A DNA stretch of 64,000 nt, taken from an uncultured Dehalococcoidia bacterium (GTDB taxonomy: Bacteria; Chloroflexota; Dehalococcoidia; Lucifugimonadales; CATOSD01). The translations under genes were made by a program, and so were the position numbers. The notes under the pieces are model-generated. The model made no database searches, had not been told where the DNA came from, and was given only the letters and a program-made list of their open reading frames with translations. Positions 4,211 to 51,823 of this stretch are shown here, one piece after another. The stretch lies in the NCBI GenBank assembly GCA_951812395.1, contig CATOSD010000001.1:930001-994000 (forward strand). Direction: 5' to 3'. Position 1 is the first letter of the stretch, and each line of letters opens with the position of its first letter.

Positions 4211-4548
4211 CCAGATGCTGAGAAGGGGAGTAGTATCGGAGATACCGGCCCCAGAGAGCCGGCGGCAGTGGGAGCCGGCGCCAGGACCTCCGAGAACTCG
4301 CCCCGGAGCACCCGGCCTGAAGCGCAGAGGAGATTTGACGTTGCAGAGCTTTGGCGTTTTCATCACGCGCTCTGCGCGCTTGGTAATTTAGCTTCCTCCT
4401 CTCCGTATAGGGTCGGGCGGTTGGCCGCCGTTATACAGCCCACAAGTGGCCCCGCGCAGTGTGCCGTCAGGTTGCGTCCGCCGGGGTAAATTGGGTGGTA
4501 CCACGAGACTCCACGTCCCGTCCCTTTGCGCAGGGGCGGTTTTTTTTT
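4211..4548 (+). promoter_or_regulatory. T-box leader riboswitch, probably leucine-specific, upstream of ilvB
   Basis: Three T-box hallmarks appear in order. The Stem I start GGGGAGTAGTA is at 4225-4235. The Stem I distal motif AGAGAGCCGGCGG is at about 4253-4265, with its partner GAGCCGGC at 4272-4279. The antiterminator bulge motif GGGTGGTACCACG is at 4493-4505. A GAA-CTC at 4294-4299 sits where the specifier loop is expected, so CTC would read tRNA-Leu. Uncharged tRNA would bind and stabilise the antiterminator, letting transcription reach ilvB. The T-box call is strong; the specifier reading depends on folding. Confidence 0.88.
4518..4548 (+). terminator. T-box intrinsic terminator
   Basis: CCGTCCCT (4518-4525) pairs with AGGGGCGG (4532-4539) around a 6-base loop, followed by nine T residues (4540-4548). 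It lies directly downstream of the T-box antiterminator sequence and is the regulated terminator of the leader. Confidence 0.88.
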
Positions 4549-47827: not shown

Positions 47828-48964
47828 ATGACTTGGAGCGGCGAGTCTCCGGACTTTTATCGCAGCATCGGGGTGAACTCGATAATCTCGGCGTCAGGCT
47901 CTACCACCGCCTACGGAGGCAGCAAGCTGCGGCCGGAAGTGATGGACGCCATGAATCGCGCGTCCAACGCCATGGTGAACATGGACGAGCTCAACAGAGC
48001 CGCGGGCCGGGTGCTCGCCGACATCACCGGCGCTGAGGCCGGCTTCGTTTGCAGCGGCGCCGCCGGTGGCCTGGTGCTTCAGGCGGCCGCGGTTGTAGCG
48101 GGGTCGGACCCGGCCAAGATGGCCCGGCTGCCCAACACCGACGGCATGAAGAACGAGATCATAATTCACAAGAGCCACCGCTTCCCCTACGACCAGTGCT
48201 ACCTCTCGGTTGGCGCCAAGTTCGTGGAGATAGGCGACGGCCGGCGCTGCCAGCCGTGGCAGCTCGAGGCCGCGTTCACCGATAACACCGCCGCGGTTGC
48301 ATACCTCTTTTCCCCGTTCGTCTCCCGCCGCGCCATCCCGTTCCCACAGGTCTGCGAGATAGCCCACGCCCGCGGCGTGCCCGTCATCGTGGACGCCGCG
48401 TCGTTCATCCCGCCCCGCAGCAACCTGCGCCGGTTCACCGCCGAGGGCGCCGACATGGTGGTCTACAGCGGCGGCAAGGCCGTGCGCGGGCCGCAGGGCA
48501 CGGGCATCCTCGCCGGACGCGCCGACCTGATCGAGGCGGCCTTCGCCAACGGCAGCCCGCACCAGTTCTTCGGACGCGGCATGAAAGTCGCCAAAGAAGA
48601 GATTATCGGACTGGTCAGCGCCCTGCAGATTTTCGTCGAAGAGGACGAAGACGCCGAGAACGAACGCTACCGCCAGATGTGCCAGCAGGCCGTGGACGCC
48701 CTCATCGAGGTTCCCGGGATAGAGGTCTCGGTGGAACACGACGAGTACAATTTCCTGATTCCTCATGCCGTGGCGCGCCTCTCCAGGGAGTGGAACGGCC
48801 GCAGCCGTGACGAGATATGGAACTCGCTCGCCGAGGGCGATCCCGCCATCTACATGCACAACATCGGCGATCCCGACGCGCTTGTGCTGGACCCCTTCAA
48901 CCTCAACGACGAAGAGCTTGGAATCGTTATCCAGAGGCTCAACGAAGAGTTGCTCAAGCAGTAG
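47828..48964 (+). CDS. SelA-like PLP-dependent enzyme
   Basis: A 378-residue fold-type I PLP enzyme of the SelA-like group. The PLP lysine is Lys217 in VVYSGGKAVRGPQGTG and the cofactor Asp is Asp189 (VIVDAAS). The N-terminal SASGSTTAYGGSKLRPEVMDAM is like that of D-glucosaminate/aminotransferase-type SelA homologues. True selenocysteine synthase (SelA) is about 460 residues with an N-terminal extension, which is absent here, so this is more likely a sugar-acid or amino-acid lyase. The proximity to a UGA-containing gene is therefore probably coincidental, but deserves testing. Confidence 0.8.
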   Translation: MTWSGESPDFYRSIGVNSIISASGSTTAYGGSKLRPEVMDAMNRASNAMVNMDELNRAAGRVLADITGAEAGFVCSGAAGGLVLQAAAVVAGSDPAKMARLPNTDGMKNEIIIHKSHRFPYDQCYLSVGAKFVEIGDGRRCQPWQLEAAFTDNTAAVAYLFSPFVSRRAIPFPQVCEIAHARGVPVIVDAASFIPPRSNLRRFTAEGADMVVYSGGKAVRGPQGTGILAGRADLIEAAFANGSPHQFFGRGMKVAKEEIIGLVSALQIFVEEDEDAENERYRQMCQQAVDALIEVPGIEVSVEHDEYNFLIPHAVARLSREWNGRSRDEIWNSLAEGDPAIYMHNIGDPDALVLDPFNLNDEELGIVIQRLNEELLKQ

Positions 48965-48967
48965 CGA

Positions 48968-50626
48968 TTGGCGCCTTGCCCGATTCGCCTGGCCGTAGTT
49001 TTGGCCGTCGCCGCATTCGCGGTGGCGGCCTATGGCTGTGGCGGCGAGACCACCGCGCCACCCTCGCCTACCGTGCCGGCTGTGCAGACTGCCGCAGTGG
49101 CGCCACCCGCGCCCACGGCCCCGCCCACGCTCGGCGGATCGCCCGCGCCCACGGTCCCGCCCGCGCCGACTTCCGCCGTTGGGCCGGCCGCATCGCCGGC
49201 GTCCGTGGCCCCACCCGCGCCCCTCGCGACGACTGCCCCCTCGCCGCCGGCATCTCCCGACCCGTCCTACGATCCGACCGCCACCATGTACAGGCTGTTT
49301 CCGGAGCTTGGCTACAACAAGCCGGACGCCGAACAGGCGCTGGCAGATATCCTGCGCGAGCGCGACACTTCCCAGGTCCCCGTCCTCATCGAGGCGCTCC
49401 GCTTCTACTTCGACGCCGAGAGGCAGGAACTGGCCGCGTCGGCCCTGCGTTCGCTTACCGGACAGGACTTCGACCGGCGCGAGTGGGACAAGTGGATGGA
49501 GTGGTACGGCCCCAACCGCGAGTTCTTCCGTCCGCCCGACGGCTACGCCGCCTGGAAGACCAACCTGCTGTCCGGAATCGACGAGGACTACATCGACCTG
49601 CTCGCCGACGCCGGGGAGACGTCCCGGATCGACCTGACCGAGGTTACCTGGGGCGGCGTGGTCATAGACGGCATACCCGACCTGCAGAACCCCGACGTGC
49701 TGCCCGCGGACGAAGCCCGGTACCTGCTATCGCGCGACAGGGTGTTCGGCGTATCCATCAACGGCGAGCACCGCGCCTACCCGCTGAGAATCACCAACCC
49801 GCACGAGATGGTGAACGACGTGCTCGGAGGCGAGCCAATCGCGCTCGCGTGGTGAACGCTCTGCGGCGCCGGAATCGTGTATTCCGCGAAGATTGAGGGC
49901 AAGCCGACAACCTTCGGCACGTCGGGCCTGCTGTACCGCAGCAACAAGCTGATGTATGACAGAACAACCCGTAGCATTTGGAGCCAACTCCTGGGCGAGC
50001 CGGTGATAGGCACGCTGGCCGACAGCGGGATCAAGCTCGACTTCTTCCCCGTCAACCTCACCACCTGGCAGGAGTGGCGCGAGCAGCACCCCGACACCAC
50101 GGTGCTGTCGCGCAATACAGGCGTCTACCCATCCGAGGTGTACGAGCCTGAGACAGCTCCCTCGTCATTCTATTTCGAGTATCGCAACAGCCCCCGTACG
50201 ATGTTCCCCATATGGCAGCGCGACGACAGCCTGGACACCAAGGACTACGTCCTCATCGTGCGCGCGGGCGGCGTCAGCAAAGCCTATTCGCTGCAGGCGC
50301 TACAGACCGAGCGCGTGGTCAACGACCAGGTCGGCGGCGTCAACGTCGTGCTGGTATCCGGCTCCGTCTCCACGCTGGGCGCGGCGGTGTACGAGCGCGG
50401 AGACGAGGTGTTCGCCCCACCGCCCGGCTACATCGTGAGCGACCCCAACGGCCCACCGCCACAGGAGCTCCGCGACTCCGCCGGGGGCGTGTGGCGCGTC
50501 CGCGAGCACGGTCTGGTGAGCGCGGGCGAGCCATCCCAAGTGTTGTCCCGTGTCCCCTCGCACGAGGCCTACTGGTTCGGCTGGTACGCGTTCCACCCCG
50601 ACACCGAGCTCTACACCGGACAGTAG
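48968..50626 (+). CDS. DUF3179 protein, likely selenoprotein (in-frame UGA at 49853)
   Basis: Reading through one TGA (49853-49855) gives a 552-residue protein. A lipoprotein-like signal with Cys24 (AAYGC) comes first, then a Pro/Ala linker, a helical region (about 95-195), and the DUF3179 domain (about 205-545). The TGA falls at residue 296, inside GEPIALAW-U-TLCGAGIVYSA. In DUF3179 proteins this site is normally the first Cys of a CxxC (CPLCG-like) motif, so the gene would encode U296-T-L-C299. The frame is otherwise open to 50626 with family similarity on both sides. A hairpin lies 14 bases downstream. DUF3179 selenoproteins are known in other genomes. The start is TTG 48968. A nonsense mutation is the alternative. 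Confidence 0.88.
49867..49888 (+). promoter_or_regulatory. Possible bacterial SECIS hairpin after the UGA
   Basis: CGGAAT (49870-49875) and ATTCCG (49881-49886) form a 6-base stem with loop CGTGT (49876-49880). With a one-base bulge, the pairs 49867-49888 and 49868-49887 extend it. The loop begins 20 bases after the UGA and has a G at its second position, within the range reported for bacterial SECIS elements. It is inside the coding sequence, as bacterial ones are. Confidence 0.6.
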
Positions 50627-50731: not shown

Positions 50732-51823
50732 ATGCTCGAACGTTTCAAGCCGCGTGAGGAAGACCTGGTACGCATAACCGAACCATCGCTGCGGCAGTCC
50801 GTCGCGGCCATATTCGAGAAGATGGGCGTCTCGCCGGAAGACGCCGCCGAGGGCGCGAATACGCTCGTGATGGCCGACCTGCGCGGCGTCGAAACGCACG
50901 GCGTCTCCAACATGCTGCGCTCCTACGTGCAGCAGTACAATGAGGGCAACCTCAACCCGCGCCCTAACTGGCGCATTTTGCGCGAGTCTCCCGCCACCGC
51001 CACCATCGACGCCGACAAGGGACTGGCCGTCATCCTCGGGCCCAAGGCCATGCGCATGGCAATCGACAAGGCGCGCGTGGTGGGCATGGGCGTCGTGTCC
51101 ATGCACAACGCCGGCCACTCCGGCGGCATCGGCCACCACGCCATGCTGGCGGCCGAGCAGGACATGGTCGGCATGTGCATGACCGCCGGCGGCGTGATGG
51201 TGTTGCCCACCTTCGCCGCCGAGCCCCGGTTGGGCACCAACCCCATCGCCATCGCCGCGCCCGCCGCCACCGAGCCGCCGCTGCTCTTCGACGCGGCGAC
51301 GTCCGCTATCGCCGGCAACAAGCAGGGCCTCGCCATGCGCGTTGGCGCCGACCTGCTGCCCGGCTGGATATCCGACTCCGACGGCGTGCCCATCATGGAG
51401 GAGACACCCGTGCGTCCGCGCGGGGAGTACTATCACCTGCCGCTGGGCGGCACCCGCGAGCAGGGCTCGCACAAGGGCTACGGATTCGGCCTCATGCCCG
51501 AAGTGCTCGCCACGATGCTGTCCGGCGTCGCGCCCACCATGGTGGACCCGTCAACCACCGGCTCCAAGCACTACTTCGCCGCCTACAACATAGCTGCCTT
51601 CACCGACGTCGACCAGTTCAAGCGCGACATGGACCGGATGCTCAAGACGCTGCGCGAGACGCCGCCCGCGCCAGGCCATGAGCGCGTGCTCTATCCCGGA
51701 CTCTCGGAGTACGAAGAAGAGCAGGATCGCCGCGCCAACGGCATCCCCCTGCACAACGAAGTCGTCGAATGGTTCGAGGACATTACCAACGAATTGGCCG
51801 TGCCTGGGCTCAGCATGGTATAA
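50732..51823 (+). CDS. Ldh_2 family NAD(P)-dependent oxidoreductase
   Basis: A 363-residue protein of the malate/L-lactate dehydrogenase (Ldh_2) family. It has the N-terminal helices GVSPEDAAEGANTLVMADLRGVETHGVSNM, the central VSMHNAGHSGGIGHHAMLA, PRLGTNPIAIAAP with TEPPLLFD, and the catalytic-site segment GGTREQGSHKGYGFGLMPEVL. Members reduce 2-oxo acids, ureidoglycolate or imino acids. The family, unlike classic malate dehydrogenases, uses a Lys-His pair, visible as His in NAGHSG and Lys in SHKGYG. The exact substrate is not shown. It is followed by the divergent ABC permease gene. Confidence 0.9.
   Translation: MLERFKPREEDLVRITEPSLRQSVAAIFEKMGVSPEDAAEGANTLVMADLRGVETHGVSNMLRSYVQQYNEGNLNPRPNWRILRESPATATIDADKGLAVILGPKAMRMAIDKARVVGMGVVSMHNAGHSGGIGHHAMLAAEQDMVGMCMTAGGVMVLPTFAAEPRLGTNPIAIAAPAATEPPLLFDAATSAIAGNKQGLAMRVGADLLPGWISDSDGVPIMEETPVRPRGEYYHLPLGGTREQGSHKGYGFGLMPEVLATMLSGVAPTMVDPSTTGSKHYFAAYNIAAFTDVDQFKRDMDRMLKTLRETPPAPGHERVLYPGLSEYEEEQDRRANGIPLHNEVVEWFEDITNELAVPGLSMV

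Follow-up and report, generated by a model that had tools for sequence, protein, structure and literature searches.

An in-frame TGA at a conserved cysteine of a Dehalococcoidia DUF3179 gene: a probable selenoprotein with a predicted tandem Rieske-like fold and a proposed redox role

The closest described systems are the DUF3179 selenoproteins that PMC9312934 and PMC13188914 tabulate as a UxxC/T family, with MBW1804167.1 and MDJ0986319.1, respectively, as one example accession per table. As tabulated, these proteins belong to the same Pfam family (PF11376) as the gene described here and have selenocysteine (Sec) in place of the first Cys of CxxC. In PMC9230427 a DUF3179 gene appears only as a table entry, and one NCBI protein (P0208) is named 'DUF3179 domain-containing (seleno)protein'. 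The first-pass annotation thus rightly treated DUF3179 selenoproteins as already recognised. In their main texts, PMC9312934 does not contain the word 'Chloroflexi', nor PMC13188914 the strings 'Chloroflex' or 'Dehalococc'. Compared with the tabulated proteins, the present set is a large Dehalococcoidia group, accompanied by evidence on the SECIS element, an internal repeat and the fold. A search of the open-licence literature for DUF3179 or PF11376 found no work on its fold, its function or its presence in Dehalococcoidia; the tandem repeat with its predicted Rieske-like fold and the TlpA/CcdA-like gene links of a sister branch were likewise not met in the papers searched.

Two further groups of proteins invite comparison. 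DUF3179 differs from Rieske-fold proteins (ferredoxins, NirD and the Rieske domains of oxygenases) in lacking their C-x-H ... C-x-x-H ligands, and no sequence match was found when it was compared with the Rieske ferredoxin of the host. Extracytoplasmic thioredoxins of the TlpA/ResA type are fed by CcdA/DsbD. Like them, DUF3179 would be an exported CxxC/UxxC redox protein, and in the sister branch the two kinds of gene are linked or fused. Unlike them, it is not matched by thioredoxin profiles, the matches to its predicted fold were Rieske-like, and such linkage was not found at the loci of the window's own branch. For a large and widespread family, the analysis yields a testable proposal for its fold, its active-site pair, its likely cell location and its likely electron donor.

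The in-frame TGA and the hairpin that follows it

The window, a 64,000-nucleotide stretch of DNA from an uncultured Dehalococcoidia bacterium, carries a DUF3179 gene whose features are collected in Table 1. The frame that opens at 48968 meets a single TGA in 552 codons and is otherwise open to 50626, just as the first-pass annotation had read it. Similarity to the family also runs across the stop without a gap: one uninterrupted match to the Pfam profile covers residues 234–546 with 256 bits against a curated cut-off of 27, which places the protein in the family. An alignment with 21 relatives revealed that C296 and C299 are conserved at 90% or more; among 90 aligned sequences, with TGA counted as Cys, Cys is found at position 296 in 88 and at position 299 in 89. 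The TGA therefore replaces the first Cys of the family's CxxC motif, and the DNA loci inspected have only Cys or TGA at this site. The GC content by codon position is 0.617/0.477/0.863 after the TGA versus 0.695/0.546/0.854 before it, and the region 3' of the TGA is thus coding-like in composition.

Table 1 Annotated features of the DUF3179 locus, in window coordinates
Feature	Position	Strand	Remarks
DgaE-like PLP enzyme	47828..48964	+	3 bases upstream of DUF3179; beside DUF3179 in 5/121 loci
DUF3179 gene, predicted 552-residue selenoprotein	48968..50626	+	one in-frame TGA read through; TTG start (48968) uncertain
Predicted signal peptide and lipid-anchor Cys (residues 1–24)	48968..49039	+	hydrophobic N-terminus ending ...AAYGC; lipobox imperfect here
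Alpha-helical N-terminal domain (about residues 100–220)	49265..49627	+	predicted model
DUF3179 unit 1 (about residues 258–373)	49739..50086	+	Rieske-like predicted fold; carries U296-x-x-C299
In-frame TGA, codon 296, predicted Sec	49853..49855	+	context ALAW-U-TLCG
Cys299 codon	49862..49864	+	resolving partner of U296 in the proposed reading
Predicted SECIS hairpin	49870..49886	+	CGGAAU (49870–49875), loop CGUGU (49876–49880), AUUCCG (49881–49886); UGA-to-loop 20 nt
DUF3179 unit 2 (about residues 427–549)	50246..50614	+	same predicted fold as unit 1; no conserved Cys

According to the bSECIS rule (PMC13188914, section 5), a bacterial element has a loop of 3–9 nt, a stem of 4–16 bp, a G in the first two loop positions, a distance of 16–37 nt from the UGA and an MFE of −7.5 or lower. 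The window copy fits this rule with a 6-bp stem, the loop CGUGU and a distance of 20 nt, the 45 nt after the UGA folding at −12.5 kcal/mol. Of the SECIS element that the first-pass annotation suggested looking for downstream of the TGA, the comparative side held up and the single-sequence side did not: folded alone against shuffles, the window region had no extra stability (z of +0.4 to +0.7). As single-sequence folding gave no support, the test was made comparative, with columns 17–23 set against 29–35, numbered from the U of the UGA. Among 32 distinct Sec sequences, pairing occurs in 86.2% of the cells, versus 69.8% in shuffled alignments (0/500 as high), and the covariation score is 0.393 versus 0.116 (0/500), or 0.03–0.15 (at most 0.154) when the columns are slid. 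Of the five measures used, two give weaker results, namely pair changes on both sides (5 versus 3.3; 21/500) and further pair types (10 versus 8.1; 46/500). In the same columns of 35 Cys genes, 39.6% of the cells pair versus 39.0% shuffled, with a score of 0.097 versus 0.080 (64/500); one measure is high there, the cells changed on both sides (12 versus 7.6; 11/500). RNAalifold independently recovers six of these pairs. The hairpin after the UGA thus covaries in Sec genes and hardly in Cys genes.

Counts and recoding point the same way. Hairpins in agreement with the first four points of the rule occur in 91 of 92 Sec genes versus 44 of 56 Cys genes, and those with a stem of at least 6 bp in 79/92 versus 14/56. 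These counts, like the tree described below, set aside L081 (TGA elsewhere), L061 and L095 (duplicates of L060 and L001), L117 (duplicate of L092) and the partial L094; the hairpin counts also set aside L159, which contains N bases. The hairpin of L090 has 6 bp, but neither of its first two loop positions is a G. Against synonymous recoding, the mean hairpin score of the Sec genes is 15.5 versus 7.5 ± 0.5 (0/300 as high), and that of the Cys genes 9.6 versus 8.3 ± 0.8 (10/300). The mean z of the folding energy against such recoding is −1.2 for 34 Sec genes and −0.2 for 35 Cys genes.

Selection, relatives and the Sec machinery of the host

As the first-pass annotation had supposed, the part of the gene behind the TGA has not decayed. 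In 49 pairs of Sec genes with 72–97% identity, TGA lies opposite TGA in all 49; for the 47 pairs with defined values, the median dN/dS is 0.167 after the TGA versus 0.192 before it, and 46 of the 47 lie below 0.3 after the TGA. The region 3' of the TGA is thus under purifying selection. A quick, unrooted tree of 149 rows (92 Sec and 57 Cys), built with the trait column masked and flagged with a long-branch warning, needs six changes of the Sec/Cys label, of which its well-supported branches force at least three; since loci L061–L093 were chosen as TGA-bearing, the ratio of 92 to 57 does not reflect how frequent either type is. A group of 65 rows that is otherwise Sec includes five Cys genes, which suggests changes from Sec to Cys. 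Four of these five (L112, L113, L120 and L158), which form one branch, are without the GGAAU-CGUGU-AUUCC hairpin, although a different hairpin, overlapping this position and consistent with the bSECIS rule, is present in L112 and L120.

The class was sampled through 393 genomes, at least 144 of which have DUF3179. Among the class matches listed, 34 have one TGA, one has a TAG and none has a TAA. Together with the window copy, 34 of the resulting 35 single-TGA genes carry the TGA at the first Cys of CxxC, far more than chance would give and in keeping with the earlier argument that a chance nonsense mutation would rarely fall exactly on a conserved Cys. The remaining gene, L081 on the minus strand, has an intact CPLC and its TGA near the end (GSK-TGA-NYAG), with a run of N codons upstream in frame; this TGA is likely a mutation or an assembly error. 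A similarity search with the window protein in a collection of named genomes gave 440 stretches that encode a relative. Within the best 80 of these 440 loci, whose titles are mostly Dehalococcoidia, Chloroflexi or SAR202 cluster bacteria, 59 of 82 DUF3179 genes have one TGA, every one at UTLC, and the other 23 have Cys. Altogether, 92 of the DUF3179 genes examined have a TGA at this Cys, two of them in the host genome. In contrast to the 59 of 82 genes with TGA at these best 80 loci, CxxC is found in 232 of the 235 database proteins listed as covering the site; two have Asp and one has Trp. The Trp protein, P0101, reads AYWTLCG and could be a code-4 translation of a TGA. Dehalococcoidia thus carry many selenoprotein genes, each of which appears as two ORFs under table 11.

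The genome search called for in the first-pass annotation found the full set of Sec genes in the window assembly (3.69 Mb in two contigs, C1 and C2, with a contamination estimate of 6.4%). The DUF3179 gene shares C1 with selA (541 bits, cut-off 268), selB (313 bits, or 337 over the whole frame with its C-terminal piece; cut-off 242) and selD (396 bits, cut-off 125), and the tRNA-Sec, with the anticodon tca, lies on C2 (69 bits by Rfam; also called by ARAGORN). A second DUF3179 gene of the host has a TGA at the same site, in VTW-U-PLCF. Across the class, SelA was found in 32 of the 33 genomes for which a TGA copy is listed versus 19 of 31 without one (Fisher p = 0.0004); the 31 are genomes with all DUF3179 matches listed and none of them TGA, and 80 of the 144 DUF3179 genomes, whose matches are listed in part, stand outside this comparison. 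G011, which is 69% complete, has a TGA copy, and SelA was not found in it. Taken together, these comparative grounds make it nearly certain that the TGA at 49853–49855 is decoded as Sec.

Other host genes carry comparable codons. The selD gene (C1:1530968–1531885) has an in-frame TGA near the N-terminus (...SCAGUASK...), at what is presumably the catalytic Cys site of other SelD proteins, and SelD is therefore likely a selenoprotein too. A lipoprotein-like, TlpA-type thioredoxin (L229, C1:1864431–1864859) has a TGA as the U codon of its UxxC, in TTW-U-PSC, and a thioredoxin-like frame (L228, C2:717872–718231) has one in YC-U-VNC; by their motifs, both are likely further UxxC selenoproteins. 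The host also encodes a heme-copper oxidase of the COX1 family (533 bits), a family that includes nitric oxide reductases, and is accordingly likely able to respire oxygen. A 2026 review (PMC13188914, section 10) states that aerobic bacteria rarely keep selenoproteins.

Predicted fold and redox-linked neighbours

A predicted model of residues 100–552 has a mean pLDDT of 95.3. In this model, DUF3179 appears as a tandem repeat of two units with a Rieske-like beta fold but without iron–sulfur ligands, the CxxC/UxxC motif being confined to the first unit. The Foldseek matches to Rieske-like structures reach E = 0.019 at best, with none at 0.001. C-x-H and C-x-x-H are the ligands of the Rieske [2Fe-2S] cluster, and this set was not found in the conserved columns of DUF3179: in 90 aligned sequences, only columns 296 and 299 exceed 50% Cys and only columns 279 and 374 exceed 50% His. 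H279 is present in all 90, and E280 is conserved. Comparison by hhalign with a Rieske ferredoxin of the host gave probabilities of 0.3 and 0.1 and no sequence link, a single template sequence making this a test of low power. A sequence search of the PDB returned two matches, to which we attach no meaning (E = 0.31 and 1.1); Pfam on the separated units returned DUF3179 plus a non-significant Agd3_C, and PADLOC gave nothing significant (best E 0.58). We also considered a placement of U296 and C299 in a Rieske cluster loop, which the H-x16-U-x2-C spacing fits, but regard it as less likely, as the end points of the structural matches to the model argue for another register. Among relatives that start with Met and exceed 380 residues, a simple lipoprotein-like pattern is found in 107 of 119 and in 101 of 106; the AYGC of the window copy differs from the textbook lipobox.

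Three database proteins (P0196, P0199 and P0227) have DUF3179 fused with thioredoxin-family domains. At three loci (L061, L064 and L065), a thioredoxin-like gene and a membrane-protein gene precede a Sec-type DUF3179 gene on the same strand. For L064 and L065, the product of the membrane-protein gene reaches the DsbD_TM cut-off; that of L061 has no Pfam match, and we take it to be CcdA-like by its NPCG stretch. The neighbour search then took in same-strand genes up to 1600 bases away, at E 1e-5 or better, with L092 and L117 both counted. A thioredoxin-like or CcdA-like gene lies nearby in 16 of 77 loci of the CPLC/UPLC sister branch (12/46 with Cys and 4/31 with Sec), versus none of the 83 loci in the branch to which the window gene belongs (UTLC/CTLC/CVLC), a comparison in which all six queries come from the sister branch, so that sensitivity in the window's branch may suffer. 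The difference between the branches has p = 3e-6; without the three loci that supplied the queries it is 13/74 versus 0/83 (p = 3e-5). Pfam finds a thioredoxin-like or DsbD_TM domain in six of eight further neighbours, and the membrane proteins of L193 and L196 are without a match. In the host genome itself, the L061 membrane protein has a homologue (269 bits, below the DsbD_TM cut-off) and the L061 thioredoxin has six matches, two of which are the TGA-bearing L228 and L229.

Proposed role, competing readings and adjoining genes

Our preferred reading, which we consider probable, is that the gene encodes a likely exported lipoprotein whose Sec-decoded TGA supplies a U296-x-x-C299 pair and which would act as a selenol/thiol oxidoreductase. 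The exported redox role, taken by itself, is somewhat less secure and still rather likely; the UxxC motif and the gene links are what point to redox activity. From the fusions, the sister-branch neighbours and the host homologues, we infer an extracytoplasmic oxidoreductase that would draw its electrons from a CcdA–TlpA relay. The selenol of U296 would attack an oxidised substrate outside the cytoplasmic membrane, and a Se–S bond would then form between U296 and C299. A TlpA-type thioredoxin would re-reduce DUF3179 with electrons that come through a CcdA-like membrane protein. The donor in this scheme is borrowed from the sister branch, since none of the 83 own-branch loci has such genes close by.

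Two readings would deny the gene its Sec. If the TGA were an ordinary stop, whether a recent nonsense mutation or the true end of a 295-residue protein, the downstream part would be decaying or would be a separate gene starting at GTG 49877. Annotation with table 11 would indeed give two ORFs, 48968–49855 and 49877–50626, and L081 offers a DUF3179 gene with a TGA elsewhere; the recurrence of the TGA at the same Cys in 92 genes, the purifying selection behind it, the covarying hairpin and the Sec machinery of the genome together make this reading scarcely credible. That the host reads UGA as another amino acid, Trp or Cys, is equally far-fetched, as TGA serves as the stop codon in 7 of the 25 long, non-overlapping ORFs that the window contains, the MacB gene among them, and the genome has a tRNA-Sec (tca) together with selA, selB and selD. 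Such decoding would account for the Trp of P0101, as a code-4 translation would give it, but the DNA loci without TGA have Cys, not Trp, at the site, and the hairpin would be left unexplained.

A weightier alternative accepts the selenoprotein and takes UxxC/CxxC, invariant H279 and conserved E280 as a metal site with a structural or transport role, not as a catalytic redox pair. Rieske proteins bind iron–sulfur through Cys and His, the fold predicted here resembles theirs, His stands at 279 without exception, and by eye the H279-x16-U296-x2-C299 spacing equals the His-x16-Cys-x2-His of a Rieske protein of the host. The thioredoxin-like and CcdA-like neighbours and the fusions point instead to dithiol chemistry, and the end points of the structural matches would put UxxC at a turn rather than in the cluster loops. 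Furthermore, many bacterial selenoproteins, above all thiol oxidoreductases, arose by replacement of a catalytic Cys with Sec (PMC13188914, section 10). We therefore judge a metal site unlikely, though a good deal less so than either reading without Sec.

Beyond the selenol/thiol oxidoreductase preferred here, a fuller picture can be drawn only tentatively, and we hold it to be more doubtful than not. DUF3179 may be a doubled Rieske fold that gave up its cluster for a dithiol, in Dehalococcoidia a selenenyl-sulfide, and may serve as the lipid-anchored reductase at the end of a CcdA–TlpA relay outside the cytoplasm, in bacteria with the equipment for oxygen respiration, with a TlpA partner that can itself be a selenoprotein.

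In a search for a shared neighbourhood in the window's own branch, the most frequent cluster of neighbours was present at 10 of 121 loci, in varied positions. The gene upstream of DUF3179, which resembles SelA distantly, was tried as SelA and rejected, scoring 38 bits against a cut-off of 268; it is closer to DgaE (225 bits, below the cut-off of 385). A DgaE-like gene lies near DUF3179 also in L104, L109, L118 and L127. Downstream of DUF3179, at 50732–51823, is a gene of the malate/lactate dehydrogenase family, which recurs in L127. Elsewhere in the window, a T-box leader occupies 4211–4523 (106.9 bits, above the gathering score of 93).
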